Of a stretch of 64,000 nucleotides of DNA, positions 4,919 to 55,484 are shown in pieces. The translations under genes and the position numbers were made by a program. The DNA is from Siphonodentalium dalli. Taxonomy: Eukaryota > Mollusca > Scaphopoda > Gadilida > Siphonodentaliidae. The notes under the pieces were generated by a model, which ran no database searches, was not told the origin of the DNA, and saw nothing but the letters and a program-made list of their open reading frames with translations. The stretch's first letter is position 1, and the number at the start of each line of letters is the position of its first letter. The stretch is from NCBI GenBank assembly GCA_032622095.1, contig CP136064.1, positions 171,376,310 through 171,440,309 on the forward strand, read 5' to 3'.

Positions 4919-7900
4919 CTGGAAGAAATTGTGAATGCATGTTCAAATTCATGTATGTATGGCACTTACTAAGAAAACATTTCCTGGGTATAGGGTAAGG
5001 CCAAAAATAAAAAAAAATAGATCTCTATTATCATCACAACCTGTCCAAATGTTTTGGCACGCCCCAAATTTATTTTTGGTATTAGGTAGATTAGGAGCAT
5101 ACTATTAAATCTAGCAATACTTGGTACAGAGCGGCTTCACCGAAGTAAGTTGTGCTCAATTTTCTTAATATGGACCCCTACATGCATGTACAGTTTTATA
5201 CAACAATAAGACTATATAAATTGAATGTTTACTGACAGCTATTACACTTTTCTAACACTAAGTACAGTCTTCTTTTCTTGGTCACAGAATGGTGCATAGA
5301 AAATACAAAATAAAATCCTTCCACTGCCCCCATTTGCCAAAAAAAAAAAATCTAATGTCATGATGCTGCATTTCTTTGACAACCGGTCATCATTATCATT
5401 TCGACAACATAATTATCGCTTTACAGGGCTGCATGATGTTAACGCATGTGATCGCCATGGGATGTGTGTGTGTGTGTGGTCCATATATAGCTGTCGGTGA
5501 AGTGTATTCTGGGATAGAACAAAAATATTCCAAAAACAATATTTTCCTAAATAAGTAAAATATATATCTCCTAGAAGTATCTTGCCCACTGAACTATATG
5601 GTATATTATCCCAAGTAGGAGGGGTTACAGTACGAAATTATATGGTACATATCCTCTGTCATGTTCATGACACGTGCAATCACGTGATTTCTGACACGTA
5701 GTGAAGTATTCGCCATATTTTTTATCCCCAGTAGGACATTCCTCGTGAGCGGGGTGGGTGCGAAACCCTGGGAGGGAGCTCAGCGTTCAGTGGGCAAGAT
5801 ACTTCTAGGAGATATATATTTTACTTATTTAGGAAAATATTGTATCTCCGTCAAAGGTATCTTGCCCACTGAACTATATGGTAAAGAATAGAATTTTCTA
5901 ACAGGTGGAGGCCACGAGGAAACAAAAACACCGCTATGCATCTGAATCAAAGAACTGGATTGACCTGATAACCTACAATATATACATATACATGCACAGA
6001 CATAGATATACATGTATATACATATATATATATATACACATGCACAATAGGACCATAAGCCAATGTAATATTACATCCTAAAACTAATACCTGTCAGCAT
6101 GCTCAAACGAACAAAAAGTGGCCACTTAAGAGTTTAAGACCCCTGCAAGTAAAGTAAATAGCTTCAGGAGACGGAGACGACATTCGCATCGGAACTTAGG
6201 GCTAATAATGTATCAGCCGAGTACTTGCCGGGAAAGGTACGGGTAACACAATAGAACCATAGAACAATAGAACCAACCCCCGAACCAAATCTTGAGTGGG
6301 TTGGGCCGTGTCCCAGTACACGATGAGAGCCCAATGAAAAACCAGCTTCAAGCTCCCAAAAAAGGGCCCCGACACCAACTAATTGGAGACATGCCATTGT
6401 CGATAAGGAGGAGGTATCATTGACCAATAGTCTGACCGGGAAGCGAATGGGTATCACACGGACATACGTTGCAAGGCTCAGGCCGTATGAAGAACAGGGC
6501 TCAGAATTGGAGTTTCACAGCAGAAAAACTTAGTTTGAAGCCTGGAGTTCGAGATATGACCGACTAAGATGCAATAAGCCATGGCATTTTCCCCTGATGA
6601 CGTTCCCAAATGTGGAAATGCCCACCAACACAGTTAAACCAAACTGACCAATCACAGGCTACTGAATCCATGACAGAAAGGCAGCCAGGAACCGAAATTC
6701 CAATGTCGTTAAGGTGGAAATCCACAAAAACAAAAATTGGACTAACGATGCAGCAGGATTAAGGCACAAGCCCAAAACCAGCGGAAACCGACGGCAGGTA
6801 GGTAATGAAAAGCAGACCAAGGGCCACCGCGCCCCAACTGTTCGAGCTCTGCTGACTGGTCCCCGACGAGTCGATGGCGCAAGGTATCCCTTCTGGTAAG
6901 GATGGGGTGCCCCTCCAATGGGACCCTGTTCCGGAGACAACCATCGCCCCAAAGTGCGAATCGAGAGGGCGGATCATATGATCTGGCATCCGACACCCAA
7001 TGCTAGTGAATCTCGCACGAGGAGAAGCATCTGGCAAGAATTTTCATCCGGCTTTATGAAGTGTGCCCAACACGATTCATATGCTGCCCCATAGGTGCAA
7101 CATTATCCTGCATTGGCAATCGCTGAGGTCAGCAAAGGACCTGGCTTAGTATATTAAATGAGCACGAGGCGAATCAAGCACTATCAGGGAAAACAAAACC
7201 ATTATGTACCGACAACCGAGCCCATAAGAAGAATGACGTATTAGACGCAAAGGCCGATATCACAGAAGCCATTCCGTTCTTCTTTTCCACGCTAATACGC
7301 CGTGTTGCCCATTAAGCCCGGGTGGGGTGCTGAATTAGGCCTCATGTCAACGGCGTTCTGAAATTGAGCATATGTCGAACCATGGATAATGGACTCATCT
7401 ATGTATGACTGGACAACAAAAGTGAAATCCATGTTGAGTTAGAACTGAAAGCAACCTGAAGACAAAAGATATGTCTGAATCACAGCCGTCCTGTGCACGC
7501 CAACCGCCAACGGTCGACCCGAGGAAGCAGATTGACGTCCCGTTCGATAGTCCAGGGAGCGCACCAACTGTGACTAATGGGTTCAATGGGTAGCCCCAAC
7601 CCGCACCCTGTTTGGTGTGACTATCGCCCCGAGTGCTAATTACGCCAATTAGAGGAACACGATATATCGGCAAGCGTCAGTGTCCTAGGGGAAGCAACTC
7701 GTGGGAGCTACGGGTTCGATGGGTAGCCCCAACCCGCGTCCTGTGTGGTGTGACTAACGCTCCGAGTGCTAATTACGCCAATTAGAGGAACCCTATATAT
7801 CGACTTTCATTTTCTACTCTTGGGACCTCGAAACGAGGGAAGCGACTTCAAGGGGAGCTACGGGGAAGGCGATTCATGAACCTGGTCTTACCTCGATTAG

Positions 7901-10900
7901 CAGTCCTGTGAAAGTAATTAATGTGATTGCGAACAATCACAAATACACCTGTTGTGTTATGTTACCATGTGGCAACCAAGGCAGTAACGGCCCCATTGTT
8001 AATCATCCAGGGTGAAAAAGGTTCAAATTGACATTCGGGATTTACAATCCTATCAGCCTATTTCACAAGCGTTTAAACACTGCTTTTTCCGTCAGACGAT
8101 GATTGTCAACGTATAAAGAAAGCCGTCAAACGAAAAAATGAACTCGAAAGTAAGTCACCTAATTTCGTGATACCTTTAACCACCGTCAACGCACGTGGTA
8201 ACTTAAATAACACGTCACCTGTATGCCATAGATTTGTTATAAAGAAAACGATCAGCGTCTTTAGTCATATCCAATGGTGCCTCGAATGTTCTGCCTTTAA
8301 TAGGCCAGAAACGCTGCATTGTCTGCATAGACAACGGATATTAAATCATTGACCGATTAAAATTATGGAAGACAAAGTCGGTTAAAACGAAACGAGTCAT
8401 CCGATTCCGATATTATATTCGGAACAAACCGTCGTAATCTTTATGTGAAATGTACATAATTTTCAACTATAAGCAAAGAAATAATGTTGTTTGTATAATA
8501 CAAAAACAAAACTGTTTTTGCTATACAAAAAAATGCAACTTAGCTTCGTATCTTGGAGTGACATCCGTCCATGGCAGGAGGGATAAAAAATATAGCGAAT
8601 ACTTCACTACGTGTCAGAAATCACGTGATTACACGTGTCATGAACATGACAGAGGATATGTACCATAGAATTTCGTACCGTTTTTTCAACTCGGAGAGTT
8701 AACCCCTCCTACTTGGGATAATATACCATATAGTTCAGTGGGCAAGATACCTTTGACGGAGATACAAAGAGGTACCCCAGGTTGAGTCTGGGATACGTGG
8801 CACCCCACGCGGTCTTGCATTGACTGAAAGCATCAATCACTTATCAAATATAATGTAGCTACATACAGATGTAATTAAATTTCCAACCCAAATTCCAAGG
8901 GTGGGGGGTACTCAAATTTCACCCAAATTGAAAAAATCATATATTTGTGTAATATGTATGGTTATTTAAATCTTGACATTCATATAAGTCATCACATATA
9001 GTATTAGATAGTGCAGTACGTCGTCCTTTTTACATGGATTTCAATGCCTTAATTTTTGGAGTTGCAAAAATGTCAACTTCGGTATATTTTTCCTCACCAA
9101 GAAGTAAAATCCCAATAACCCATTCTATACTAAATGGATTCTCCCCCAGTTATAAATGTATTCATGGATTGGTCTATTGTTCATCAGGAGGGTTTTTCAG
9201 AAAATGAGCAGACAACAGATAAAAGTTCAGAAGGAGTCCTATTTATTGGAGGGAAATGTTCATATGTTGAACTTGTTATCTGAACATTTCCAAAGAGAAC
9301 TGCTCATCAATTATTATAGAAATTAGTATTGTAAGGGTAAAGATAGCAGTATCCTCCACTTCAGACTAAGTTGCCATTCTTTAATGATGAAAAACAAGTA
9401 CCACTATGGAAAAATCATGACACACAAGCTTCCATGCCATATAAGGTATGCATTGGATCTAAAAAATATGCAATGTATCGGATATAAAAGACATTAAACG
9501 TCAGTCTGAACACCTCAGTATTCCATATATTCCAATTATCAGCGTATAATATGGATTGATGTAAAACAATTGTCTGAACACAATGATATACCCCATTATC
9601 AGCATACATTTTTGTTGGCATCGATATAAGTTTAAGACAATATATCAGCACTTTCTCTCCACCCATGATATGATTGCTGTACTATCCAGTGAACTAAATT
9701 ACAGTCCCTCGATCGATTTAGCATTTGGACCATGACAATAAAATATATGACAATATTAGTTGTCTCATCACACGAGTTGTGTTGAAGTGCCCGCCTGGTC
9801 ATGCACATTGTTCTTCTGCTCATTTAACCCTTTCAGTGCCAAGTCCAATTTTTGTATCAACCCATATTTCCTTGATCATTTTTGAAATTTATTGATTATA
9901 ATAATGTGATACATTGATGGAAAGAGCTCTAAGAGCTCTTTCCATCAATGTATCACATTATTATAATCAACTTGGCACTGAAAGGGTTAACTCATTCAGT
10001 TGCATGATAACCTTAGTGGGCTTCAAATTTCTCTTTTTATTTTTTGGCATGGCTGGAAGTGTGGTAAAATGATTGTCGCGATGGTAATCAACCTTTTGTT
10101 TGTATAATTGGGTGGACATATACTTGTATATATGCAAATATATATTCTAAATGGAATAAACAAACAATCAATGTTCAGTTAACTGTTAATAGCTACTCAC
10201 AAGCATGGATGCTTTCAGCTCAATGTCCTCCTGATCTGCCTTCCTCCTTGCTTTCTCTTTGTCTATTCTATCTTCCACCACTATTTGTTCATATTCTTTG
10301 TACTAGAGAAAGGAAATTTTAAATGAAATACAGTTCTCTCCCCTGTGGAGCTGTCGAATAATGGTAATGGTGTATCACACTGACATAACAGTTACTATTG
10401 ATTATACATTAATGCCCTAAATAATCGACTCCTTAACCACAGCAGAATTATGGGTAATTTTTCAGGATTTAGTCGGAAATATGGCTTGTTGCCATTCATC
10501 GGAAAGCTCTCAGTGAGAAAAAATTACCCATAATTCTGCTGTGGTTAAGGAGTCGATTATTTAGGGCATTACTGTACCAAACTGTATAACTGCTTTTCCT
10601 TCCAATAATAAACCCACTGAAGAGCAAACTTCATTGAAAATTTCTAGCAACAATAAATCAGCATGACTGTTAACCCTTTCATGACGGGAGCTGCACTGGT
10701 GCAGCATTAAAGATCCTGTGCCAGTGCATTCTTTTATATATGCGAGTCTGGCACTGGTTTACAAGGTCAAGGTAAATATTGTTAGAAGAATATCACACAA
10801 AAAAGGAGAGCGGCCAAATATTCATTCAAGTTGATAGGTATTGAAACCATTTGGTCGGGCAAACAAACTATTATTTTCATTGAGGCCTGATATGTTGCCT

Positions 10901-13900
10901 GATCTGAATAGTCCATGCCCGCACTAATTTTTCATGTCATTGTAAAGATGAGCTTTAGTGTCATTAACATTTTAATGTATTAATGTGTCACAGAATCTTA
11001 CCAGTTTTGTCAGCTCTTGCAGTTTTTCTAGATCCTTAGCTTTGGACGCTTTGAGAACATCAAGTTCATGCTGCTTCGCTTCAACATCTTTGTCAAATTT
11101 TTCCATCCAGTGCTCCACTTTCTTCTCCAATTCCTGCAATCAATTACATTAATTTATATGACCATTAATTATAGGAAGTTCTTCCCTTTATTTTCAATCT
11201 ATGAATTGTTATACCCCACAAAGTTATGGGGAATACTGGAATCAGCTTGTCCGTCAATCTGTAACACCTCTAGTTATCCTTGAAGATTCGTTTGCATTAA
11301 ATATAAATTAAGAAGAGAGGTTCTCAACTAAAATCCTTCCTATTAAAGCCATAAGGAAGTAGCATTCTGAGTTAAAATATAAAGTATGTTTCCATATTTC
11401 TGTGGACTTTGGGGTTTCGCGTCATTAAACATTCAACGATTTGGTGTGCAAGTTTGGATTTATACTAGTGTAATGTAGTGTAATGGGACAAGTGTGTCCC
11501 TGTCGTGTTTGTAGGTCGATCTACTTATGGCATTCGGACAGGATCTTGTTGAGGTGTTTGTTGGTTATGTCCGGGGTAGGGGTTTTTCCTGGCAGTATAA
11601 TGGTGGTTATATAAGCCCAATGGGGGCTTACTCCATTGGAAGCATACAAAGCTAGGAAGCTGGTTTGTAGGTTCAGTCTGAATTGCTTTGCAGTCTTATT
11701 GCGAATGGCTTTATACAGATTGATATTGGCACAGGTCCCTGGCACAATAGACCCCCACGACCCAAAGACATATATATGTCTTTGGGTCATGGGGGTCTAT
11801 TGTGCCAGGGACCTGTGGATATTGGCTGTTGATATATCCGCCTTTGTGTATCTGGCGGGTTCCAGAACATTGTCTGGTCAGGGCCATTTCTTTTTTTCTT
11901 GTTCTCGATGACAATATAGATTCAGAGGCACTCTCTAGTGGAGTCCATGCTAGTTTTGATGGAGGTTGTCTGTAACATGACCATTATCCATTGCTGGCGG
12001 GTCAAGTAAACAAATATATGGAGAGGTGAGAGGTTAATCTCCATGGATGATCACCAACAACAAATAATCCGCTGCTAGAAAAGGTTATTCATTGTTGGTG
12101 ATCTTCACTGGAGATTAACCTCTCCTTATGACACTAGTATATGCAATATAAATTAATCTAGACAATCAAACCGTTTTACACTGGCAAATATAACAATATG
12201 ATAGTATGTATTGTGAACCTTCATACTTCAGCTGTGTTAACCCTTTATTTAGTCAATGGATTCTCCCTTTCAGTTATAAAAGTATACATTCATATTGGAA
12301 TAGATTACTATTCGTCAAGATAGGGATGCTCAGAAAATATAAATAGAAGGCAGACAGAGAAACAGATAATACAAATGCTGAAGGACTCCAATCCATATGA
12401 ATGTTTACTAAGAGAACTACTCATCTACAAGAATTTAGTAATCAAAGAGTTAAATGGACATGGGTTGTTCAAACCTCAAAAGTATGTATACATAATTTGG
12501 TAAACTTGATGTGGAAGATTTTGGAACAAACTTGTCAATATAGTGCTGAATATGTTTGTTTCTTATATTTTTTGGTAAATGTTATATCGTTTCATTTGTC
12601 GGTTAATATATTTTAATCAGTGGTCACATATTAATTGCAACTGTAATCCATGGGGGGGGGGGGGGGGGGGGGGGAAATGCAGAGCTGTTGTCACTCTGCA
12701 ACTTCTATGATACTACATAATTTTGACATTTAAACTAATGAGAAAGCAGTGTGCACTTGAAGTTACAATATACCATAGTTTCTGGTGAGTTAAGATAACG
12801 CAATATACATTTATATAATACGTGTATTATTCTGCTTCCGATTCCAGATCTTCAATGAATGCAAATGGCATACCAAGTGCTTGGCCCAAACAACATGTTT
12901 GAAGTTACATTGTTTATGACTTCAATGAATCATTCTAGGACATATAATGGTAGTAGAAAGGTATTTTTTTGTATTTATAAACATATTTTGATACCGGGAA
13001 AAATTCAAAAGCGAATATTATTAGGTGTATTTTGGAGTGCAAACCGCTATGTGTGACAATTTGGGAATTAAAGTTTGTTCACCATTGAATTAGTGTTGTC
13101 TGACCTTTAAAGTATTCTGGAAATCAGTCAAGATGTATTGGAATTCAATGACCAACATTCCATAAAAATTATGTTTTATCTACTGGGTTAGAGCTAGCTA
13201 CTTTGATCTACGTTGGCATAGAATACCAGTACACCTAGTACATGTATATCAAAAAGAAAATGGTTTCTCACCTCTAAGTGTGATCAGTCCCAATATGAAT
13301 GCAATATAAAATATATACAAGTATAAAATTTACTCACAGATTGGTGGTTTCTGAGATATGATTCCACTTCAGCATTGACCCTTGTCTCGTCATCAATTTG
13401 TCTGCGTAAATTCTGAAGAAAAAAAAAAAGAATAAACAATGTATCATCATGCTAAATATTACAACATTCAATTACAGCCAATGTATCCATTAACTGAATT
13501 ATTCTAAAATTATGTTTGTGGACTCCAAAAGTAAACCTTTCATATGGTAATGGGAGCAACATCTTTGGGTCCAAATTGGGTAGTGGGATACTCTCACCAA
13601 TTATCACCAATTTCTTGGGAAATTATTTCGTAACCCTCAATTCACATAGAAGTTGGCCCTCTGACCCAGGGACAATCCGACCTAGGCGTATTTTTGGTTG
13701 GGTTGAGTTCATTCACATTCAGTCACATTCACAATTGTTTTCCTTCATATTTCTTTGAAAAGTACAATTCATATTTTAAAACATGAATAAATATCACAGA
13801 TAGTATAAATATTGTACCAATTCTGGTTAAAATACAGACTCGGCAGCTAACACAGTACTACGTCTGGTGATAATGGCTCTGTTGTAGATTACCTTCGCTA

Positions 13901-16900: not shown

Positions 16901-19900
16901 TTCAATCTAAAGTTGAAAATTCTACACATATATATAAATCCTAGTTGTTTTTGTCATTCTATCTATAATTGCATTTTCATTCAAATTTGCTTAGAATTTT
17001 GCAATTAACCCTTTCATGATGGGAGCTGTGCTGGTGCAGCATTACAGATCCTGTGCCAGTGCAATCTCTTATATATGGGAGCCTTGCATGTATAAGAGAA
17101 TGCACTGGCTTACAAGGTCAATGTAAATATTATTAGACCAATATTGTCTCTTATATATGCGAGGCTCCCTATCTAACACATTGGCACATGGTTTTCGCAA
17201 AATTTTAGGAAGCTACAGTCGTGGAAGGGTCAACAGAATATGTGTTCTATCACAGCTTCAGTCTACAAATATGTGCCTACTTTTTTATGATTTATTCATT
17301 AAATTGGTGTTTGGTTAAAATAATTACGTTGTATAAATGCAAGTGTTCAATGCCACATACATGTAATGGTTTATAGAGGGACTTTGAGCAAGTTGCTGAA
17401 GTAAGTGCTAGTAGCATCTGGTATATAAAATCCAAGCTTTTTGCATGTCATAAAAATAGCGAAGTAAATAGCCAACACGTCAGCTGAGCATATTGTCATA
17501 ACTCCAAAAAAATTCTATCTCACAATCATTTCTATCTTGTCTGTATAACAAAACTTTTCATTGCTGGAATCAATTATATAAAAAGCACATCACTCCTATT
17601 CTGTGGTGACTTCTATAGTGTTTCTACAGATCACCAGCTCTGATTTTGGTGATTGATCATCAACCACATTTTGGTTTTGTCAGAAAAGTATTTGAGCTGA
17701 AAATAACAAGATTTTCAGGAAGTTTCCACCTGTCAATGACTTTATTTTATTGCTTGATTATTAAACAGGGGTCGTATCAGGATCTCCCTGACACAGGACT
17801 AACACCCCTGGTAGGCGGGCTATAGGGATCCAGTCCATACTGGGGTCGGTGGGAGAAATGTTTAGCTGAAATATAGGACCAAAAGTTGAAAAATCCTTGA
17901 TTTTAGAGGCCTTCATGCAGTTAGGACGACAAACAAAATATTGTCATATTTGACATATAAAAATGAAAGTTTATGTAACTCTTAAAAATCGGTAACACAG
18001 GAACAATTGTCAATACAAGCACATGTGATTCCATGCATGTACTCTGCATGTCACATGTCTGTTGTTCCCAGAAACGTAAACATATATGACACGAGTTCCT
18101 GGAATGTAAGACATCGCATTGCAATCAACTACTAATACTGTGGGTGCTAGCACAGACTGCCAGCTTATTTCTAAAGCACATGATTGTGTTGCCAGGAATT
18201 CATCGCAACTTGCATGTGTATATTTCTTTGATTCATCCGCTGGCCTAAATCCAAAAAGTTTGTCGGGGTGAGGGGTGGTAAATCTGCAGAATTATTTGGG
18301 TATGCTCACGATAGATTTTGCAGATCCCCCCCCCCCCATGGTGATATCCCTGTTATTAACCCTTTACCCAACAAACCGGCCAAAACCGGCCAAATAAAGC
18401 TTCAACAGCCTAAAATATCTTCGGTCTGTCTCAATAGAACCATACAAATATGGATATCATTGGAACCGGCTCCTTGACCACATTGTGATAGTTACAGTTA
18501 TGCCCTGTGCCAATGCATTCTCTTATATATGCGAGTCGACCATAGGTCGCCTCGCATATATAAGAGAATGCATTGGCCTAAAAAAAATCTTTTTTTAACA
18601 TTTTTTTCTTACATTCTTTAACAATTTTATAATTTTTAATGTGTTAAGCCAATGCATTCTCTTATATATGCGAGGCGACCTATGGTCGACTCGCATATAT
18701 AAGAGAATGCATTGGCACAGGGCCGTTCTGTTGGGTAAAGGGTTAAAGATCTTTCCAAACAGTGTACAATGTGAACTATTCATGCAATCTATCCACTGAA
18801 ACAGTAATTGCAAATTGTGCGCCTTCAGCAGATTTCTGTGAAATGCCATTGCACTTCGCCGGTTATCTACAAATTGTGTAAAATCTCATAACTTTTGTAG
18901 AAACACATCTCTTGGCCATTATACATATATGAAGAGTTGAACCACATCCACTACAATCGCATGCAAACCACGTGATTCGCCAACTTATAATATGTATCTA
19001 ATCTGAAAATTGTGTGGTCTATAAGCTCTCATTGCTCCCTTATGTGTTCTATTTTGGCAGATCACCTGGATCATGCATGACACACACCATGTGGAATGGC
19101 TTTTATTGAAACTTTTAAAGTTGTTAAACAAAATGGATTGTTTCTCAAGAAATATTTTTCAAATTGATGAGAGACATTTTTTTATTATTAATATTTATTT
19201 CAAATAATTTTTTGCCAAGAGACAGGTAAATAAAATATTTATTTGAAACCCATATTCACGAAAGACACTAAACAAATGCAATATACTGAATCAGGACTGG
19301 TGAATGTCCACCACATTTACCATTAATTTCAAACCCACAGATATATAATACAAGTAGTACAGATATAATATTAATTATATTATTAATCACAGATGACATT
19401 TTTATCTAGAACAGCCTGTTATAGAGCTATGTGAATATCGCTTTAATTTGCCCTTAAATCCAGTAATATAATTTTACAAATCCGAGTAATATGGCTTCAC
19501 AACATGTCTAAATCTACTTCACTGCTAAATAATGTGTAGATATAAATTTTTGTTATCTGAATGATTTATCAGTTACTAAGTGGCGATCTAATTAATAAAT
19601 AGGATATTACTTGGTTTGTTCAATATTAAGCCTTCGGTCTCAGGCTGAAATGAGGTTACCTCGGGCTGATATTGGGCCTCATATCAAACCAACCAAGTAA
19701 TATCTTCTAATTATAAAAGACACAGAAACTTCATCCGTATAATTTGATCCAACCCCGGTCTCTAATTGAGCACCAGCATCAAACTTTATTCCCCAGGGTT
19801 TGTGTTTATATGCAATATACATCAATTGGTATGGAAAAGATGACTTTTAATAGATAGTGATTTATTGTTTTTAGAAATACGACATTGGAGCATCTTGTGA

Positions 19901-22900: not shown

Positions 22901-23193
22901 TGGCATATCAAAATGCTTCCAGAAAAGAATGTAATAATGGTCATTTATAAGGTAAACTCAATATTATTCAAATTTCTCTCTTGATATCAAAGCCGGCATA
23001 AATGAACCGTTAGAGGTGTTAAATAGGACAGGGCATCATTAACCCTATCAGTCCCAGGTGGGTGAGTGAATACCTGTGCGGCATCTGAACGGCTCTCATA
23101 AGATGCTGGCATAATTTGTCCTAGCACCGCTAGCTGGTCCACGCAGTCCTCCAGCACCGTTACAAGGTGTATTGCATCTACACCACCCAACAT
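4811..23193 (-). CDS. IQCG: IQCG / DRC9, dynein regulatory complex subunit (whole gene, 8 coding exons)
   Basis: Joined exons (23193-23074, 20776-20532, 16886-16758, 15765-15522, 13412-13338, 11133-11002, 10302-10201, 4918-4811) total 1155 bp, that is 384 residues plus TAG. Human IQCG is somewhat longer, about 440. Every junction is GT/AG and all phases agree. The protein is almost all coiled coil: an N-terminal helical part, a KNSTHVFGRSLKQNP segment, EMIAHLKDQLQEMKAKTN, a WMEKFDKDVEAKQHEL segment, then the IQ motif LQAWWRGVMVRKK and a Lys/Gly-rich tail. This order is characteristic of IQCG/DRC9, a calmodulin-binding subunit of the nexin-dynein regulatory complex that links axonemal doublets and controls dynein in cilia and sperm flagella. 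The family assignment is from remembered family sequence, not a search. Introns of 0.6-5.3 kb are loaded with MITEs. Expression in ciliated cells is expected from the family. Confidence 0.93.
5538..5842. mobile_element. 305-bp palindromic element, 58-base arms
   Basis: Left arm 5538-5595 and right arm 5785-5842 are near-perfect complements (start caatattttcctaaataag). The interior is homologous, inverted, to 8570-8732, so it belongs to the same family as the larger structure that follows. Confidence 0.8.
5842..8765. mobile_element. 2.9-kb non-autonomous DNA element with GTATCTCCGTC ends
   Basis: The ends GTATCTCCGTCAAAGGTATC (5842-) and its complement (ending 8765) are inverted. The right terminus continues for about 170 bases matching, inverted, the interior of the adjoining 5538-5842 element. 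The body from 6150 to 7900 is clearly more GC-rich than its surroundings and carries a 133-base tandem duplication (7573-7800). Only short broken frames are present and none resembles a transposase. No convincing target-site duplication was found. It sits in the last IQCG intron. Confidence 0.6.
7573..7800. repeat. Two-copy tandem repeat, period 133
   Basis: 'ttcaatgggtagccccaacc' at 7582 recurs at 7715 with few changes, through 'gagtgctaattacgccaatt' in both copies. Confidence 0.85.
9828..9986. mobile_element. piggyBac-like MITE with TTAA target duplications
   Basis: TTAA at 9824-9827 and 9987-9990 flank inverted ends CCCTTTCAGTGCCAAGT. The centre is an almost perfect hairpin (about 9891-9970, arms of about 37 bases around gagctctaagagctc). 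Confidence 0.85.
10201..10302 (-). CDS. IQCG: IQCG coding exon 7
   Basis: Acceptor ttctctag, donor GTGAGT; 34 codons, YKEYEQIVVEDRIDKEKARR onwards, a highly charged helix leading into the IQ motif. The following intron is 5.3 kb and contains the long inverted-repeat element of 5.5-8.8 kb. Confidence 0.93.
10407..10574. mobile_element. pogo/mariner-like MITE, copy 1
   Basis: TA-flanked element with inverted ends CA(G/T)TAATGCCCTAAATAATCG and inner arms 'aaccacagcagaattatggg'. CAGT-type termini with a TA duplication fit the Tc1/mariner/pogo superfamily. At least six related copies occur in the window. Confidence 0.85.
10674..10800 (+). mobile_element. Partial TTAACCC MITE (family PB-b)
   Basis: The left end TTAACCCTTTCATGACGGGA is followed by 'tgccagtgcattcttttata'. 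It matches the copies at 17009 and 63248, but no right end is recognisable. Confidence 0.55.
11002..11133 (-). CDS. IQCG: IQCG coding exon 6
   Basis: Acceptor gattgcag, donor GTAAGA; 44 codons, ELEKKVEHWMEKFDKDVEAK onwards. The Trp-Met-x-Lys-(Tyr/Phe)-Asp block is one of the most recognisable parts of the family. Confidence 0.94.
11730..11817. repeat. 88-bp near-perfect palindrome
   Basis: Arms of 44 bases starting CACAGGTCCCTGGCACAATA are complementary with a single mismatch and no spacer (centre catatatatg). Confidence 0.95.
12028..12124. repeat. Inverted repeat / small MITE
   Basis: GAGAGGTTAATCTCC at 12028 is inverted at 12110-12124, with a second inner arm 'gatcaccaaca/tgttggtgatc'. 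Confidence 0.8.
12241..12449 (+). mobile_element. TTAA-flanked MITE (family PB-d)
   Basis: TTAA occurs at 12237-12240 and 12450-12453; the ends are CCCTTT... and ...AAAGAG. Related partial copies are at 9116-9310, 14670-14820, 24020-24185 (inverted) and 58840-58910 (inverted), all sharing 'atggattctccc' and 'agttataaa'. Confidence 0.65.
12651..12675 (+). repeat. Poly(G) tract
   Basis: A run of more than 20 G. The length is probably not reliable in assembly. Confidence 0.95.
13338..13412 (-). CDS. IQCG: IQCG coding exon 5
   Basis: Acceptor ttcttcag, donor GTGAGT; 25 complete codons beginning NLRRQIDDETRVNAEVESYL. Phase 0 at both ends. Confidence 0.92.
13816..14376. mobile_element. Element with about 40-base terminal inverted repeats
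   Basis: 'ttctggttaaaatacagact' near 13820 is inverted as 'gtctgtgttttaaccagaac' near 14355, and homology continues inward over 'cggcagctaa'. No ORF. Confidence 0.7.
15522..15765 (-). CDS. IQCG: IQCG coding exon 4 (coiled coil)
   Basis: The donor GTAAGT at 15521 is strong. The chosen acceptor is catccactcag, giving KEEDGRKRVKLLQKQLQDVK. A second AG 14 bases further in (gatggcag) is out of phase with this and has a poor pyrimidine tract; a third (ctcttgcag, exon from 15732) would not keep frame with exon 3. The phase requirement of one base at the start and 81 codons therefore supports 15765 as the first base. Confidence 0.88.
15911..16274. mobile_element. Chimeric pogo-like MITE pair with an inserted transposon end
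   Basis: TA (15909-10) then CAGTAATGCCC opens one copy, which breaks at 16045. From about 16044 to 16165 the sequence matches, inverted, the right terminus of the 45.8-48.8 kb element (starts ggcaattccacg). It then resumes as the right part of another MITE copy ending at 16274 before TA. Confidence 0.8.
16758..16886 (-). CDS. IQCG: IQCG coding exon 3
   Basis: The acceptor is tactttcag and the donor GTAAGT. It encodes SFVESVMADTLTELIQSC followed by a charged helix ending LQQTIQ, and ends with two bases of a Lys codon. Length 129 bp. Confidence 0.92.
17009..17229. mobile_element. TTAACCC MITE (family PB-b), nearly complete
   Basis: TTAA is at 17005-17008 and a decayed TCAA at 17230. The ends are CCCTTTCATGATGGGAGC and GGAAGCTACAGTCGTGGAAGGG. 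Internal hairpins are built of 'cttatatatgcgag'-type words. Confidence 0.7.
18360..18742. mobile_element. 383-bp piggyBac-like MITE, TTAA-flanked
   Basis: TTAA occurs at 18356-18359 and 18743-18746; inverted ends are CCCTTTACCCAACA. Inside are two complete hairpins, each 'tgcattctcttatatatgcg' followed by its complement, so four copies of this word occur in alternating orientation. Confidence 0.9.
19957..20403. mobile_element. Nested foldback element
   Basis: GTCTGAGTTTAGTGTGCCTG at 19957 is inverted at 20384-20403. Inside, 'gcagaatgaggt' and 'tcaccctctgggg' occur twice in each sense, giving hairpins within the hairpin. Confidence 0.8.
20532..20776 (-). CDS. IQCG: IQCG coding exon 2
   Basis: The acceptor is gttccag and the exon starts in phase 0 with LVQNEILQLVEGQKEL; the donor GTATGG leaves two bases (AG) that combine with the first A of the next exon to give Arg. 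The exon carries the NSTHVFGRSLKQNP stretch, which corresponds to a well conserved block of IQCG proteins (Arg-Ser-Leu-Lys followed by Asn-Pro). Confidence 0.92.
20920..21674. mobile_element. 755-bp non-autonomous hAT element with exact 8-bp TSD
   Basis: GGCTACAC at 20912-20919 and 21675-21682 flanks inverted ends CAGTGTTCGCGCTG. Subterminal direct repeats 'catttggctaa' occur at both ends. There is no transposase ORF. Confidence 0.92.
21780..21830 (+). repeat. Possible retroelement 3' tail with (TATCC) repeats
   Basis: 'aataaaattatcctatccta' resembles the AATAAA plus short-repeat tail of CR1-like elements or SINEs. Confidence 0.35.
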
Positions 23194-23232
23194 CTTTCTT
23201 CAGTGATATTCCTCCAATATTAGAATAAGTTT
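23074..23232 (-). CDS. IQCG: IQCG coding exon 1 with part of the 5' UTR
   Basis: The ATG is at 23193-23191 and coding runs 40 codons (MLGGVDAIHLVTVLEDCVDQ...) to 23074, followed by donor GTATTC. The exon extends upstream to a 3' splice site (ttttccag, exon from 23232), so 39 bases are 5' UTR and at least one untranslated exon must lie further upstream (higher coordinates). No in-frame ATG precedes the chosen start in this exon. Phase 0 at the donor. Confidence 0.88.
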
Positions 23233-24322: not shown

Positions 24323-24780
24323 AGGCCCACTTAATTTTCGAGTCTCCGATTATTTTTGTTATAGTGACTTGATATACGGTTTTAATAACAATCTATGCCA
24401 TAAAATATGATTAAAATACTATAATACATCACTATTTGAAACATCTATGTCTCAGAAGATGCTCACAGAGAAATAGAAAACTGCTGAAGACTCCCCGCCC
24501 CCCCTCTGGCACCCAGAATGCAACAGAATTCAAACTTTTTCAATGAAAGGGGAAGAACTCTATCTTTAATATATAGAGTTATTCCCCCTGCATTGAAAAT
24601 AATACTGATTTTTACTTGATGACAAATGCATTGGCAACTCAACAAAAACAACATGTCCACAGTTTATTGCACCGGATAAGTTGATATTACAATGTTTTGG
24701 AGCTTCCTCTTTCAAATGGTATATAATATGGCATATATTTTATATAAAGTAATCTGGGGGTTCGAAAATTAAGTGGGCCT
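24323..24780 (+). mobile_element. AGGCCCACTTAATTTTCG MITE, copy 1
   Basis: TTAA (24319-24322) lies on the left and TTTA on the right. The inverted ends are AGGCCCACTTAATTTTCG, 458 bp. Confidence 0.85.
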
Positions 24781-24953
24781 TTTATAAAGGGGTGCTGTAT
24801 GCAAATCCGACCATTTATTAGATGCCTTCCACTTCATTCAACAGAAAATATGCTACAAATGAATTAATTTGAGTCAAGGATGCATGTTGAATACACACAC
24901 AAACTCAAAAGAACCACATATATCAACATGAAAATTATGTTAAAGGCACGCTT

Positions 24954-25395
24954 AATTTTCAAACCCCCAGATCACATACATGTATATAAAATATATGACA
25001 TATTATGTATCATTTGAAAGAGGAAGCTCCAAAACATTGTACTATCAATTTATCCGATGTAATAAACTGTGAACATGTTGTTTTTGTTGAGTTACCGACA
25101 TGTTTTTGTCATCTAGATTGTACTAAAAAGTGTATTATTTTCAAAATACATCTTAAGTTTGAATTCTATTGCATTATGGGAGCCAAAATGGGGGGGGGGG
25201 CAGAATCATTCTATGATTTCACATCATTTCAGCTGTTTTTCTATTTCTCTATTGGTATTTTCTGAGACACAGATGTTTCAAATGGTGATGAATTATAGTA
25301 ATTTAATCATATTTTATGGCATAGATTGTTATTAAAACCATATATCAAGTCACTATAAAAAATAATAATTTGTGACTCGAAAATTAAGTTGGCCT
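24954..25395 (-). mobile_element. AGGCCCACTTAATTTTCG MITE, copy 2, opposite orientation
   Basis: TTAA occurs at 24950-24953 and 25396-25399. The body is the reverse complement of 24323-24780 (for example 'gaggaagctccaaaacattg'). Confidence 0.88.
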
Positions 25396-25403
25396 TTAAA
25401 TAG

Positions 25404-26415
25404 AGTTTATGACTTAAATTTTGTTTAACGGACGGTGAATTGGGACAATTAGAAATTAGCACATGTCATGCAGAAAAAGCAATCACGAAATATGACATAA
25501 AATTCAAGACATCCCTCGATGATTTATCAAAAACTTATTAATACAAACTCAAACTAAACTCAAAACGATTTTATTTGACCATCAAAGTATATATTACAAT
25601 ATGATAATGGGGTACTATGGAAGCCATGGCTTATAGGTCAGACCTCTATAATACAATAATTAAACTACATGTAAGTGCAAGAAAAGAAGAAGAGTTGGAA
25701 GAGAGATGGGGTGGGGGTACATGGTGTGCATATTGCATAATATGTTGGAGATATATATGCTCATAAGTAATAGAATATATATCAATTTAAATTCATGAAA
25801 CACTTTTAGTGTTTAAATGAATTGGCAAGGATGCGATCGAATCACTAGTCGAAATTCATTTGACTTAGGCTAAAAAAATGTGGCAGTTTCGATAAATTTT
25901 TTTATCAGTTTGAATTATATAGAATGTCAAAGACGTGTGTAGGCCTATTATTTATGACAGCAGTCATTGTTAAAGTAATCTTTTAAATATTTGGAGTAGT
26001 CTGTACTATTATTGATGCGTAATCTGCAGTCTTCTGGGAAGCTATTCCATAATGCTCGGGCTCTGTTTGAGATTGCACTTTTTGAGATTTTGGTCCTTTT
26101 AAATTCATTATAGAGATTACCTTATGATTTTGCACGAGTATTATAACTATGTACATGTATATCTGCAATAATTGTGAATAATTTTGATAAGGAATCACTG
26201 AATCAGGTAGTGCATGCATATGGTAGTCATTCAATATTCTAATTAGTTGCATGTTCGCAATGTCATCAAGCATTAGTAGTATGTTTTGTTTACTTTATGT
26301 CGAAATATTACTAGCACCGTTTGAGATAATTTTAAGAGCATTCTCCTGTAGTTTTCTGATGTTAGATAGATTTTTGTTGGTAGTCAAGCTCCATATTGCA
26401 TTACAGTAAGTTGGC
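25404..26415. other. Non-coding stretch
   Basis: No exon or repeat with clear ends is visible; AT-rich with short broken frames only. Confidence 0.5.
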
Positions 26416-26728
26416 CATGGCTAGAGTACCGTATATACGGCACTTTAGCCGAACTGCTAGAGTATCGTATACGGCACTCTAGCCAAACTGCATGCAGCCA
26501 AAGTGCGGCTAGAGTACCATATACAGCACTTTAGCCGGGCTGCTAAAGTACCATATACAGCACTCTAGCGGAATTGCTAAAGTACCGTATACGGCACTCT
26601 AGCCAAACTGCGTAGGCTTTTCATGCACTTTAGCCGAACTGCTATATAGCACCGGGGCCTTATGCATACGACACTTTACCAAGCAAACTGCTAAGTACCG
26701 TGTTTGATCGGAGTATTTGGTTGGCATG

Positions 26729-26830
26729 TCAATATGCAGATAATAGTGTTTTGAGTTCTATTTGCTCTTCCAAACTTTTAAAACTTTGGAAAGTTTGCCC
26801 TGCGGCCGGTATCCATTCGGGTGCCGCCAT
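26729..26830 (-). pseudogene. Start of a coding sequence, truncated (33 codons)
   Basis: ATG at 26830, in a GGCGGC context, opens MAAPEWIPAAGQTFQSFKSL and ends at TGA (26729) after 33 codons. The segment TFQSFKSLEEQI resembles the opening of FAR1/SWIM-type transposase-derived proteins ('FxSFxELExxI'), but this is a weak resemblance on 12 residues. No GTRAGT donor lies inside, so it reads as a deletion derivative of a longer gene inside a foldback element. Alternatively it may be a first exon with a weak donor, or chance. Confidence 0.35.
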
Positions 26831-26905
26831 ATTGGTGACCAACCCGTGCAGTTGACAACTTGACGTCATTCTACGTACGTGCGTGCCAAGCAACGAAATA
26901 ATCGA
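26820..26905 (-). promoter_or_regulatory. Promoter-like core with YY1, CRE and X-box-like motifs
   Basis: On the - strand AATATGGCGGC (26833-26823) matches the YY1 consensus and contains the start codon of the stub. TGACGTCA (26861-26868) is a full CRE. GTTGCT on the - strand (from AGCAAC near 26891) is half of an RFX X-box. The combination and the CpG content look like an animal core promoter; there is no experimental support. Confidence 0.45.
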
Positions 26906-27221
26906 CGGTACGGTACTCTAACAGTTCGGCTAGAGTACCGTATACTACACTCTAGCAGTTCGGCTAGAGTACCGTATACTACACTCCAGCAGTCGGCTAG
27001 AGTAACGTATACGACACTCTAGCCAGTCTGTTAAATGTTCACATGTGTGTCATATACTTGAATATGTACATGCATAAAGTTATAATTAAGCCCATCATTT
27101 TGGTATCAGAATCATATAGAAATTATAGTGGTTTTATACCGTTTTGTGAATTTGATAAAAGAGGGATACTAGTCCAAAATCATATTTCAAGCAAATTATT
27201 GAAAAACAGTGTCACATTAAT

Positions 27222-27344
27222 CAGCCCTCATAATTGGCTACGGCAATCAGCAATGCCGAAGCCATTTGCTGAAGCAAACTGGGCCACGATAAAGGGTTGC
27301 CGTAGCAGATTGCCGAAGCCAAACAATCTGAATTAAAAGGGCTG
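27222..27344 (+). mobile_element. 123-bp MITE (CAGCCCT ends), copy 1
   Basis: CATTAAT on both sides (27215-27221 and 27345-27351). The inverted ends are CAGCCCT and the inner arms contain 'ggctacggcaatc'. Other copies are at 43283 and 45728. Confidence 0.85.
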
Positions 27345-28229
27345 CATTAATTCCGTATTATACATAATTATGTTTTGTTCGATCAGGAGAATGATTAATC
27401 ATGACGGTACACAATAAGTAACTTAATTAGCATTCAATTAGTTCAAATGTTGTTAATGAAGGAGAGATTAAGTTATCCTGTTATTTAGGGGGTTGGCTCG
27501 TTTCGCTAATCCATTCTGAGCCGATGAAATTTTACCGTGCTACATTCAGATTTGATGCACGCTGAAGTGGTCGATGAACGTATCTATAGACAACAACGCG
27601 CGGGTGTGCTCGTTTCGCTACTCCGTTCTGCGCCGATGTCAGTGAATCGAAAACTAAAGTTAGCCGCTCTCGGCCAATCAGAATGCTTGTTTTTAGTGAC
27701 AAATACTCAATTGAATTACAATTGTCATTTAGAAAGGAATATATTAGTAATATTATTGAATAACAAAGCTGGCGCAAAAGATTGCACAACGAATTTTATC
27801 GGAAGACTGACCCTTCGCTGCGATATTGTTATGAGTGAAATGGTGTGCGCCGTCTTCTTAGAAGTTCTATTCCCGACGCAAATTCAGGAAACATGAATAT
27901 GTTATGGTCATATACCACTATAATAGTGGAATACCACTAATATAGTGGAATTCACTGTTATTCAGGATGTGCCTGACCTGCATTGTGAATTTGTGTCGTT
28001 GGTGACAATTTTTTGTTGAACCAAATTCAAATTTCAAAATTGATCAATAAAAATATTAAATTTTAAAACTTTGTTGAGAAAGAGATCCTGCATTACCATT
28101 TAAGACAACCAGAAGTATACACAAAACAAGGTGGTGAAGGAATCAGTTCAAACCTACAAAGAATATCGTCATTAAATCCGTGCATTCCCAAGAAATTCTG
28201 GCATTGTTTACAGTTACCAAGGGCCGTAT

Positions 28230-32572: not shown

Positions 32573-34929
32573 GACATATACATGTATTTGATATAGTCCA
32601 GGTGGCCATTTTGGCAGCCATCTTGGATTTGGGTAAATATTCCTCAACTCAGGTATACGAGGAATCCTAGCTTGAGTATCTCCTGCACATATATATGCAT
32701 GGGTGTTGTTATAATAGCAATAACATTCATTGATTCGAAACATTACATCGCGTTATTAACGTAGATTCGGCTTTGACCTATTATACCGGCATTTGGGAAA
32801 ACGTGATATCGGACATATTATCCCACAATGAATGTATATTATGGTCCCCATGTGGTCGCCAATGACTCCTCTGTGTGATAAATGTATAACATCATGCAAA
32901 GATGCCAACATTTTCCCACAGAGACAAACGAAAGGTGGTAACATGTCAGAAAAATAGTATATTTTCACATTTCGGCGGCCATCTTGGCCGCCATATTGGA
33001 TTCTGGTGTCGAATATTTGGCTAATTTGTAAGGGTTGTATATTAGCACAACGAATCGAGCGGAAAACAAGACCGCATGTGATATCATCTTTACTATAACG
33101 GCGATCAAAGAGACCTGGTGCATTTTTTAAAATGGCCGTCATGATGGACGCCATCTTGTCTGGAGTCTCTGCGGCCACTTTTTTTTCTTGTTAACAAGTG
33201 AAAAAAATTAGAGGAGACCTTAAGGAAGAAAATTAGTGGGGTGAAGATGAGTCCTGGGGGGGGGGGTGCAGAGGTCGACCAATATCTCCTGGACTAATAT
33301 ACTTCTGACATACATGTATACTATAGCTGATGGGATCACTCTCACCAAAAAAAGTGCTGAAGTGTACACAGGGTTTGAAAATGTGCTGAAGGGGACCCAG
33401 GGTTTGTGATCGCCACTAACATCGTTACTTAAACTGTGTTTCTGAAAGTCTGGTGCCCATTAGCAGTTTGTATTCAGTTCATTTTAATGTTCATTGGAAC
33501 ATAAACAATTATTCTCTAACAGAAATCATGGCAGATACGAAAACTAAACGTCATTTAGAAGCACATTCTCAGCTAAGTGGGCCCAATTGACATGATGTTT
33601 CACCGAAAAATCGAAGTTAACCATAAGAGCCAATTCGGTTAGTTTCTTGAAGTAGAGTATCCATATAATTGAAATCTGTATTGGCGGACGTTTTAACAAA
33701 TTATCCCCACAGTCAGTGGCTCCGGGAGCGGGTGGCGTTGTTTCAAGTATAGAGATACGACAAGATATCAATGTATGGGGTAGTTGATGTGTTGTGGAAG
33801 TGGGCGGAGCTTATGTCGAGGTAGGGCGTGGAAAGGGCGTGGCTTCATACCTGCAATTAATCACGGTGATGATAATGTCCATACGTTGAAAATGGACGCA
33901 AATTCGTTTGTTATTCGTACCTTACACCGAAAGAGAAGCCGGGACCAAAGAATGTACCAACTTCAATAAGTATGAACAGTACACCCCAAGGTGGACTACT
34001 TCAATTTATTTCGGGATGATGCACTCTGGCATTTGATTTTCGACGAGACCGACCGAAACGCTCATCACGTGATTTCGGAAAAACGTAACACGCGCCTAGG
34101 AAATGTCTAAAATGGGGCATAATACGATTGAATGCTCAGGGAAATGGTGTCATTGTGTCATTTGGTGTTAGCAACCGTTGCTACCATTAAACAAAAGTTT
34201 GGTTCACTCATCCGGCCAGATATATAACAAATTTTACAATAGGGCATGGGCTGCATCGAAAACGCCATTTCCTAGGGCTTAAATACGTCGATAAAAGCTA
34301 TAATTGCATTTTATATTCAATTTCGGGTAGCTGCATAGCAACCGTTGCCAGGGAGTGATCGTGTGACAATGTATCCCGGTCTTTAAATACTCAGTGGTCC
34401 ATGGGGAACATACATGTAAAGTTTCAGATCTATGGCACCACTTAAACAGAACCCACACATTGCACCTAAACAAAGTCTACAATAAATAAAAAATAACACT
34501 GGGAGCCCAGGGTCATGGTGTCGATCGTTGTGGGGAGCCAGGGTTCAAAGGGTTAAATGGACATGGCTCATTCGAGCTTCCAAATTTTGTCTAAGTAATT
34601 TCTAAGGATGTATAAGATTGGTTGCAAATACAAGAAATGTTGATAAGAATATATAATTTCTAATTATCAGTGCATCTTTAAATAATTTGAGGTCAACAAA
34701 ACCAATCCCTTGACATGCCCTGCGTCATTCGACTTTTGTCACCAATTTTCTCACATATCTTCTGGAACGATAATAAACGCTCTTTATTGATTATATACCC
34801 ATGTAAGTCATCTGGGGTCGAAGACGCCTATCGCGTGACATTCATCATGTTGGTTGGTTCATCTGTACCAATTTTTCTATAAATACTTTAAACTTATAAA
34901 GAACGCTCTTTATTGATCAAATTTGACCC
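32573..34929. other. Repeat-derived stretch without a gene
   Basis: Contains 'gccatcttggccgccatatt'-type sequence (32580-33180) whose - strand frame of 140 codons (32756-33178) is made of repeat, not protein-like sequence. A short G run is at 33258. At 33350-33430 and 34500-34545 'acccagggttt' and 'gcccagggtcat' words recur. No splice-bounded exon was recognised. Confidence 0.5.
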
Positions 34930-40097: not shown

Positions 40098-42687
40098 CTA
40101 GATCCATTTGATCTTTGTGTCATGGCTTACGCCATCAAAGATCCATGGCCAGCGTCAAACATCATAGACGACTATGATTCCTATAAAAGTAACAATTAGG
40201 ACCAACGCACATTAATTTATCAACTAAATACAAATACAAGTGTGAAACCATCCACTCACCTACGTGTAATTTATCCTTAAAATCCGACAAATAACAGAAC
40301 GTAAACACTGACATGTCGTGTGTTCGTCAACAATTGCATGTGACCCGTAATTTCATGAATCCCCCCGTGAGTTCCCCGTGCGCACGTTAAGGTAATCACA
40401 TGCGTTCACATTGAGTGAACAATTCAGGTTGCCCTGATACAATTCAATTTGAGGGGAACTACAATCTGCGCATGCGTGTAATTTTTACAACTAACTGATT
40501 TCAATTTGTTACACATGCGTACTGATAACTTCCTGATACAGTCATGTGGGTTGCAGAATCATGTTCCCATGCGTGATTCGTGCACGAGACGCACGTAGTC
40601 ATGTGATATGTTAGCTCCTCCTGTTTCAGCCATTTAACCACGTTTTGTCAACATGTTTTCCGACTGGATTTTTGGATTAAATTATTACGGAATTATACAC
40701 ACATTCTGGTAGGTTTCAGAGCTAAAATATATTGCAATATTGTTAACATTAATGACTATGTTAGTTGATTTGTAAAATTAAGTGTATTTAAAAAAATTAA
40801 ATAGCCGTCTAAGCTGATGCGCCGCCGCGGTCAGACCTGGATGGCCTTAGCCATATTACCAGGTCTGGTCAGACTAAGTTTATACTAAGTAATTACTATA
40901 ATAGTACGACCTGATAATATTAATAATATGGCTTACGACATACAGGTCGTAGCGCGGATCTTCTATCAGCTTAGACGACTATCTAATTTTTTTAAATACA
41001 CTTAATTTTAAGAATCAACTAACACAGTCATTAATGTCAACATTATTGCAATTTATATTAGCTCTCAGACCTACCAGAACGTGTGTATAATTGCGTAATC
41101 CAGTCGGAAAACATGTTGACAAAACGTTGTTAAATGGCCGAAGCAGGAGGAGCTAACATATCACATGACTACGTGCGTCTCGTGCACTAATCGCGCATGG
41201 GAATGTCACCGAACATGATTCTGCAACCCACATGACTGTATCAGGAAGTTATCAGTACGCATTAGAGCTGAAACGGACAGCCGGATAACCGGTTAGCATC
41301 CGGATAACGATGTAACCGGTTAGAAAAAAATGAACCGGACGAAACCGCATCCCGCTCTGTCAGTTGAATGTGAACGTGAATAATGCACTGGTACCCTCAA
41401 AATATTAAGATAAATGATGCAAAAGTAATAATAACCCCTGTGCCACCGATAGTACAGTGCAATGCAAGCATTAATTGGTGCATGCGGAAGTTTTTGATAC
41501 TGAGTAGCAATTCTCAAACTGTCCGGAAGTGTAGGCGACCTTCATTTAATTCCGGCCTTTGAAGTTTTCTCTGATCTTCCGACGAGAGCACGTGGGCAGT
41601 CACTGTGTATCCAGGCGGGATAGTTCAAAGCAATGACATCACTGAATCAGTGAATCTGTCATCTGATTGACACCCCTGAGACTCGGTATTATTTCGTGTT
41701 GAAATTTGAAAAGTGAACACGGCTATCGATTGACTCTGCGAGTATTAACGATAAATGCCATTAAATGGAATCGCGTAAATCGGAAGTGTGGGCGAATTGA
41801 TTACTTTCTAGTCTTTATTTATAATTCATTGGAGGATATACCAATGATGATATCATGATAATGATATATTACAGATCTTTAATATATAGTTTTGTTACTC
41901 GTTTTACCAATACCCATACTATAATATTGTTACTCGTTTTACAAATGCCCAAACATATGCTGATCACCGGTAATTGCAAATAAGCGATCCCCCTGCCATT
42001 CACAAATTTCACTTGCTCATTCCCCATCATGAGAGCCAGCAAAAGAACAGTGAATGCGTGTTTTTGAATATCGTTAAATGCCGTGAATAAGGTATTTATT
42101 TCAGCTACCATTTCTCACCTAGGTTTGTCCCTGGAGCATGGAAAATGTCGACATAATTAGTCTGAGAGAAGTCCGCTAGAAATTTGCGGTTAACCGGTTG
42201 AAATCCGGCTAACCCCAATGGTTAACCGGTTAGAAGAATGGGTCAACCGTTTCAGCTCTAGTACGCATGTGTAACAAATTGAAATCAGTTAGTTGTAAAA
42301 AATACACGCATGCGCAGATTGTAGTTACCTTGAATTGTATCAGGCTACCTGAATTGTACACTCAATGTGAACGCATGTGATTACCTTGACGCGTGCACGG
42401 AGATTCCGGGGGAACTCATGAAATGATGTGTCACATGCAATGATCGACGAACACACGACATGTCAGTGTTTACGTTCTATTATTTGTCGGATTTTAAGGA
42501 TAAATGACACGTACTAGTAGGTGAGTGGATGGTTTCACACTTGTATTAGTATTTAGTTGATAAATACATGTGCGTTGGTCCTAATTGTTACTTTTATAGG
42601 AATCATAGTCGCCTATGTTGTTTAAAGCACGCCATGGTTCTTTGATGGCGTACGCCATGACATGACACAAAGATCAAATGGATCTAG
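40098..42687. mobile_element. Large palindrome, arms of about 710 bases, split by a hAT insertion
   Basis: The left arm 40098-40805 is matched by the right arm 40967-41262 plus 42261-42687. Arms start CTAGATCCATTTGATC. The spacer (40806-40966) is GC-richer. The arms differ by scattered substitutions, so the palindrome is old. No ORF. Confidence 0.88.
41263..42260. mobile_element. 998-bp non-autonomous hAT element with exact 8-bp TSD
   Basis: GTACGCAT at 41255-41262 and 42261-42268 flanks inverted ends TAGAGCTGAAACGG. Subterminal 'taaccggtta' words repeat at both ends, which is typical of hAT transposase-binding arrays. No transposase ORF. Confidence 0.95.
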
Positions 42688-49730: not shown

Positions 49731-50699
49731 ACCGACTTTCCCATGGTTAATTGTATTATCATTTGTTATGTTATTATTATCAGTTTCATATTTCATATCA
49801 TAAAATAGATAAAGAATGATTTTAAACAATGGTTCTGTTATATATGGGGCCGTCTTCGCAAGTTCGCATGGGGCCATGTTCGTATGTGACCAACCTAGCT
49901 GACATACCCCTGTATTCGTCTAGATTACATGTGCCGGTTTATACACATATACAACATGAAGGAGACGAAATTATTAGATGATACTCTTGCTCTAGTGTGC
50001 ATATTGTAACTCCAGAACAATTGTTGGTTTCAATATCTCTGACCACAATGTTTGGCTGACTCTGGAAGTTCATAATTTCCAATTGAAGAACACACCCATT
50101 TTCAGGTTACGCTAAATTCAAATTTGGGCAAGCCTGGTCACACCGACCAATCGTTTCTGCGCTGTGGTGGGTGTATGTCCGCTGTGTTGGAGTGTACAGG
50201 TGCTGTGGCGGTCAAATCCCATTTTTTTCGAGCGACCGAGACAGCTGACCGAGATGCAAAAAGTCAGTAATATCTACATCCATGGACAGATAATTATCAT
50301 ATTTATTACAATAAACAGTCCACAGCCCTGTAGGGTCATATTAGTGCCAACAGATGCACGCTTCTTTGCCCCTCCCTTAGTTTCTATGTCTGTGAAAAAC
50401 GCTACACAAAATGCCTGGGTATGGTTTCTGAACATTGTCTCCCATTGAAAACAGTCTGATTTTAACACAATGATAACACGTTAACACCCTACTGATGAGC
50501 TTCATGTGAGCTACAATAATTCATGAACGTATCCATATTGGCCAAGTGTCATAAGAGCCAATAATAGTCGAGAAAACAGCGATATAAGGAGACCACTAGT
50601 CACACAAAAATGCATAAAAGTGCAAACGCTGCTGTAAAGTAGATGACAACAATGTTGTGGAAAACACAGTTATACAATTAGATGAGACCATATGGAATT

Positions 50700-50919
50700 A
50701 TTAACACTTGATTTTAGAGTTATCTATCTTTATCTGCAAGACCGTCCGTTTGACCGGCAAGTTCTGTCCCACAAACAATAGAAATCGCAAACTTCAAACA
50801 TCGATATCTAATAACTCTGAGCTTTCATGGGTGAGTTCCTCGACTCGAATCAAATATTTTGTTACCCCCCGAACCCAAAGAAATAGTAATTTAGGAGCGT
50901 CTGATCGGATTGAGTACCT
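50700..50919 (+). mobile_element. AGGTACTCAATCC MITE, right half only
   Basis: Matches the right half of 28689-29169 and ends GATTGAGTACCT before TTAA (50920-50923). Confidence 0.8.
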
Positions 50920-51589
50920 TTAAGCAAATCCGAGTCCGGGGGAAGGGTCACTATCAATTCATAACTCAAAGTTTCAGTATTATGCTCATGCAGAAGACAT
51001 ATTTAGGACCAGTTAAGTTAACCATAACATACATTCTAAATACCGGTCAGTGTATCCAGTGAAAGGAGTTCAAATCGGGTCAAATGATGTCAAAGGCGGT
51101 AACGCTTCAAAATGTATTTTTTGACACATGCAGTGTCTCAAACCCACACCAATTATTATGGCCAATTATAATTGTGGTCACATTGGGTTATTGGTGGCTT
51201 TGTTTGTATGCTGATTGACCTTATATATGATTCTATGTCCCCACCGACATGCCAATGTCAACCTGCATGACTAATTGCATAATTATCAGATCTATGATAC
51301 AGTCTGCAGCTCGTAATAATGCATTTAAATGGTTTAATTAATACTGAAATCCAAGATAGCTGACGGTGACCTTTTTTTGGTTTTTTTTGTTTGGGCCTAT
51401 TCACCCCAAAACATGTCGTTCCCATCTGCCTGCAACTGTCAACCTCCAATTAAGTCAAATTTTATAACGATCGGACCTAATGGTAATGGATCAAATTTTG
51501 AAACTCAAGATGTTTTTTCCGAATAACCCAAAAATGACTCGTTTCCCATCTACTTGCCAATATCATCATCCTTGAACAATATGTCATGT

Positions 51590-55481: not shown

Positions 55482-55484
<3 letters not shown>

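Follow-up and report, generated by a model that had tools for sequence, protein, structure and literature searches.

Features of the locus and its surroundings

Two arrays of a short palindromic repeat are found at 26418-26701 (left arm) and 26909-27025 (right arm) of the window, the whole 64-kb stretch of DNA that was analysed. Neither arm is assigned to a strand, and together they enclose a unique core of about 207 bp (26702-26908), which is read on the minus strand. Adjoining the left arm is a frame-shifted stretch (25951-26417, minus strand; TYCNAIW..., HSYNTRAKS...WNSFPEDC) that we take to be the C-terminal tail of a LINE reverse transcriptase, an assignment made by eye from familiar LINE tails. 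Its two fragments gave no match to Pfam, and by eye the LINE reading was not seen to resume to the right of the right arm. A second transposable element with terminal inverted repeats (TIR) lies only 0.2 kb to the right, at 27222-27344 (see later).

A nearby cilia gene is IQCG (DRC9). The frame 22990-23199 on the minus strand matches two DRC9 chains in the PDB (E values of 0.0013 and 0.0047, with alignments that start at residues 53 and 59), and this supports the IQCG gene call of an earlier note on this DNA. Its exon has an acceptor-like sequence (TTGTTTTCCAG) and an in-frame TGA before the ATG, which makes a leader exon upstream plausible. In the window the word TACATGTA is enriched (21 occurrences, 2.3 expected), a hint of a marine invertebrate, and an uninterrupted run of 51 C occurs at 55484-55534.

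The repeat unit of the arms

The left arm consists of 34-bp repeats, each made up of a 28-bp near-palindrome (GCTAGAGTACCGTATACGGCACTCTAGC) plus a spacer, CAAACT or CGAACT, while the right arm begins with a half unit (26909-26922) followed by three units with the spacers AGTTCG, AGTTCG and AGTCG. Tandem Repeats Finder returned arrays of period 34 at 26420-26491, 26508-26611 and 26915-27023. The left array is degenerate from about 26604 inwards and ends in a half unit at 26690-26701, and the similarity of the right arm fades at about 27035.

A consensus for the 28-bp unit was built from seven of nine unit-like stretches, each with at most 7 mismatches, leaving out those at 26420 (a 2-base insertion and 9 mismatches) and 26895 (12 mismatches), and it is palindromic at 26 of its 28 positions. 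The seven units diverge from this consensus by a mean of 7.7%, so the element is either old or loosely homogenised. Across both strands of the 64-kb window, the 24-mer TAGAGTACCGTATACGGCACTCTA has nine matches at seven places with up to 3 mismatches, all of them within 26458-27021, and 100 shuffles gave none. On the plus strand nothing outside the element came within 10 mismatches of the 28-mer anywhere in the window. The arrays of a palindromic unit on either side of a core, as set out in the earlier note, are therefore borne out. Neither viral contigs nor prokaryote genomes gave any match to the arm patterns, which is unsurprising for an animal repeat and has no bearing on the host genome. 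Rfam gave no family at gathering thresholds.

Orientation of the arms

Because the unit differs little from its reverse complement, alignment cannot separate direct from inverted arms, and BLAST of one arm against the other gave a direct match (79% over 104 bp) and an inverted one (89% over 57 bp) of about equal quality. Judged from the spacers, the evidence points to inverted arms. Those of the left arm are CAAACT (three), CGAACT (two), CGGGCT (one) and GGAATT (one), and those of the right arm, once reverse-complemented, are CGAACT (two) and CGACT (one); the spacers flip between the arms, which are accordingly read as inverted. Two details count against inversion: the single constant mismatch of the unit (position 9 A, position 20 C) points the same way in all seven units, and the sequence immediately beyond the right arm's last unit (AGTCTGTTAAA) looks by eye more like a left-arm spacer.

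The facing half units that bound the core (GCTAAGTACCGT at 26690-26701 and TACGGTACTCTAAC at 26909-26922) fit the loop of a foldback element, and also a core inserted mid-unit into one direct array, so that they lend no support to inversion. As a single strand, the element has a predicted fold of -128.3 kcal/mol, compared to -80.6 kcal/mol for shuffled sequence (z -7.16; 0/20 shuffles as stable), but palindromic units fold well in either orientation and the fold energy does not favour inverted arms. Of the foldback description given in the earlier note, the tandem repeats and the middle domain are clear, while the inverted orientation, which rests on the spacers, is less certain than was claimed.

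The unchanging mismatch, the near-equal alignments and the half units at the core would all suit a local minisatellite built of the palindromic unit that was never a transposon. An insertion would have split one of its units, or a rearrangement would have inverted part of it, and the core would be inserted or ordinary DNA. The flipping of the spacers argues against such an origin and, taken with the evidence from the ends of the element and from elsewhere in the window (see later), we regard it as rather unlikely.

Content of the core

No second copy of the core was found in the 64-kb window, where its other matches are of 13-27 bases only. On the minus strand it carries an exact CRE (TGACGTCA, 26861-26868), an X-box-like word (GTTGCTTGGCA, 26894-26884) that is one of three such words in the window, and a YY1/TISU-like word (CAATATGGCGGC, 26834-26823). 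An ATG lies within the last of these, at 26830-26828, in agreement with the earlier note. There are 13 CpG in 215 bp of core (observed/expected, 1.2), and the ratio reaches 1.44 in 26800-26905. The CpG count of 26800-26904 is matched by only 0.56% of 105-bp windows and that of 26705-26904 by 4.4% of 200-bp windows; the interval 26801-27000, which is partly arm, contains 18 CpG and ties for second among windows of 200 bp.

The ATG opens a 33-codon ORF (26729-26830, minus strand; MAAPEW...LLSAY) that ends at a TGA. A resemblance of its start (MAAPEW...FQSFKSLEEQIE) to the N-terminus of FAR1/SWIM (Mutator-like) transposases was considered, and is supported by none of the analyses. The length is one expected by chance (p 0.37), and another ORF in the core reaches 46 codons. 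No match to the ORF was found in Pfam, and the sole match in the PDB, to BAG6 with an E value of 1.2, was taken as chance. A search of viral contigs gave 35 pattern stretches, of which 0 were confirmed. The suggestion that this ORF is protein-like is thus not upheld. Since Pfam, the PDB and viral contigs are not expected to hold many animal transposases, the absence of a match carries little weight.

The core as a possible promoter

The CRE and the YY1/TISU word with its start codon could represent a live promoter carried by a transposon, one that once served the transposase and possibly still fires. This is compatible with a foldback transposon as the explanation of the whole element, but on the evidence below we consider it unlikely. 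TISU has the consensus SAASATGGCGGC, and is expected within about 30 nt of the start site.

The CRE is the sole exact example in the 64 kb and is placed 38 bp upstream of the ATG in CAATATGGCGGC, which agrees with SAASATGGCGGC at 11 of 12 positions. Among 20,000 simulated sequences of 203 bp with the composition of the core, a CRE was present in 0.39% and the YY1 word in 0.11%, and none contained both. The raised CpG ratio in 26800-26905 and the rank of 26801-27000 also favour a promoter. Against this, SAASATGGCGGC occurs 27 times in the window at up to 2 mismatches when 7.07 are expected, a number reached by none of 100 shuffles, and 8 of the 27 fall in tandem arrays (Tandem Repeats Finder). 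The 12-mer CAATATGGCGGC itself has a further copy at 32987-32998, where another word of the kind follows. Given this enrichment, YY1-like words are poor evidence for a promoter here. The motifs were also picked after the fact, the ORF that follows them is of chance length and has no protein match, and the CpG count of the core is equalled by 4.4% of 200-bp windows. The claim that the element has its own promoter has in its favour an unusual pairing of CRE and YY1 word 38 bp apart, and against it the enrichment of near matches to the word. Promoter activity of the core is weakly suggested by its motifs.

Many CAAGATGGC(C/G)GC words occur at 57600-60900 and 32600-33160, and some of them are tandemly arrayed. 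A search of one open-access library for literature on foldback elements that bear promoters, or on transposase promoters, found none.

A wider form of the same idea, in which the element would be a mobile promoter cassette with transposase sites outside and CRE, TISU and start codon inside, spread across the genome and with ciliary genes including IQCG among its receivers, is highly improbable. If there are dispersed copies with an intact core, they would be well suited to the question of whether promoters are distributed by foldback elements.

The core and the IQCG gene

It was also proposed that IQCG has an untranslated first exon upstream of the acceptor at 23232, and that the element could supply it with a promoter. 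The first part is plausible given the in-frame TGA of the IQCG exon; as for the core being the source, no splice donor with a score over 4, which is roughly the 99th percentile, was found between it and 23289. A core co-opted by the host as the promoter of IQCG, or as its untranslated first exon, would be in keeping with the position of the IQCG exon, 3.6 kb downstream on the same strand and with a stop codon in frame before its ATG, and with the X-box-like GTTGCTTGGCA. The highest-scoring donor within or close to the core, at 26843, reaches only the 93rd percentile, and the donors that score above 1.3 between the core and the region of 23289 are at 26120, 24979, 24003 and 23294. The donor assigned to the IQCG exon itself scores 0.34, and with so low a value the donor test has little power. 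A search of the core for an X-box, allowing 1 mismatch, found nothing, and a nearby stretch, 27481-27680, has as many CpG (18) together with a CCAAT word. Taken together, such a role of the core in IQCG seems very unlikely.

The nearby stretch is a possible promoter candidate at least as good as the core. Over 27481-27690 there are 18 CpG in 200 bp (observed/expected, 1.56), the CCAAT word is on the minus strand, and AGCGAAACGAGC is repeated 112 bp apart.

Other elements with terminal inverted repeats in the window

A sibling element of the same plan, with a different palindrome, is found at 53912-54201 (no strand assigned). It has perfect TIR (ACGGTGGCTGGTTTAGGACATGGTA), and its arms are built of 22-bp palindromic repeats with GTTCGAAC at the centre. 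The target duplication, AGTTTTAT, is 8 bp long and occupies 53904-53911 and 54202-54209. Its predicted fold has a z of -18.9, and 0/100 shuffles were as stable. The interval 53904-54209 is complete, and represents a cleaner example of a foldback element than 26418-27025.

The 123-bp element at 27222-27344 has the ends CAGCCCTCATAATT and CAGCCCTTTTAATT and a 7-bp duplication (CATTAAT), and a near-perfect hairpin of 88 bp at 11730-11817 (CACAGGTCCCTGGCACAATAGACCC) has an 8-bp duplication (GATATTGG). The first scan for TIR accompanied by a target duplication returned 13 rows for the window and none for five simulated sequences. Two of the rows are the element at 11730, one is the sibling and two lie inside the arms of the sibling. 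The remaining eight were set aside, as their flanks are palindromic or nearly so and the 'duplication' merely continues the inverted repeat. The inverted-repeat pairs set aside are 5688-8620, 18520-18705, 24403-25314, 40318-42456, 40588-41179 and 50528-52038, with 22-25 of 25 end bases matching, and there may be further transposons among them.

Origin of the element

No target duplication was found at 26418-27025, where the boundary box held 0 candidates. A relaxed scan, too, was negative here and in 40 control boxes, and it picked up all three elements supplied to it. The edges share no word of at least 6 bases, and their gapped similarity is at the level of chance (p 0.50). Nor was a TIR found outside the arrays, the inverted flanks scoring 17 against a shuffled mean of 16.5. 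The inverted pair 26140-26168 and 27058-27086 was rejected, since it scores at chance. That the LINE reading does not appear to resume on the right, and that the window holds no second copy, also count against a transposon. The absence of both a target duplication and an outer TIR would fit the minisatellite origin described above; the design of the sibling, a proper TIR element with like arms, argues against it, and is the main reason for preferring a foldback transposon to a minisatellite accident.

The locus is thus probably a decayed, non-autonomous DNA transposon of the foldback type with no recognisable gene, whose inverted arms are arrays of a palindromic block, adjoining the tail of a LINE. 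The earlier reading of it as a transposon remnant is supported by its architecture and by the presence in the same window of three TIR elements that have target duplications, and lacks a target duplication of its own. Such a duplication can be lost together with the ends, and membership of the foldback group is accordingly filed as likely, not proven: the ends of this copy may be gone, or it may represent an array that was rearranged. In its present form we regard it as an ordinary remnant of a transposon.

By analogy with Galileo, the 28-bp palindromic blocks of such a transposon would have been repeated sites to which a transposase provided in trans could bind, with the core of about 207 bp forming the loop between the inverted arms, and it is by this route that the copy at 26418-27025 would have been mobile. 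The core may be the remnant of the 5' end of a longer element after an internal deletion. The presence of two elements with different palindromic units but a single plan suggests that in this genome foldback arms are repeatedly made of palindromic arrays; a reason could be that every such unit offers a pair of facing transposase sites.

Comparison with known systems

Among the known foldback elements is one from sea urchin. In Drosophila and nematodes, the available extracts describe foldback elements with tandem-repeat arms and duplications of 8-10 bp, and they report three structurally complete copies of Tetris without conserved ORFs (PMC4079207, PMC3169594).

Galileo, a member of the P superfamily, provides a model for the arms, as tandem repeats within its long TIR hold several transposase-binding sites according to the parts of the reports consulted (PMC3688188, PMC4168063). 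It differs from 26418-27025 in its TIR, which measure 0.5-1.2 kb and end in about 40 conserved bp (PMC3688188), and in its target duplications of 7-8 bp (PMC4168063, in extract), of which there are none here. For a THAP-type transposase as in Galileo and the P superfamily, the core ORF gave no Pfam match. KolobokP was dropped as a relative, since in the extract of its description it has long terminal direct repeats (PMC9587614). The start codon of the core can be compared with TISU (PMC2518114), whose consensus as used here, SAASATGGCGGC, appears in other papers. The ATG is in CAATATGGCGGC, one mismatch away from this consensus, near matches to which are enriched in the window.

Compared to Tetris, Tm1 and the sea-urchin element, the arms of 26418-27025 are short, the repeat is itself palindromic, and there is no duplication of 8-10 bp. 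The likeness to Tetris of Drosophila virilis and Tm1 of Meloidogyne (PMC4079207, PMC3169594), and to the sea-urchin foldback element, is one of build: inverted arms of tandem repeats around a middle domain.
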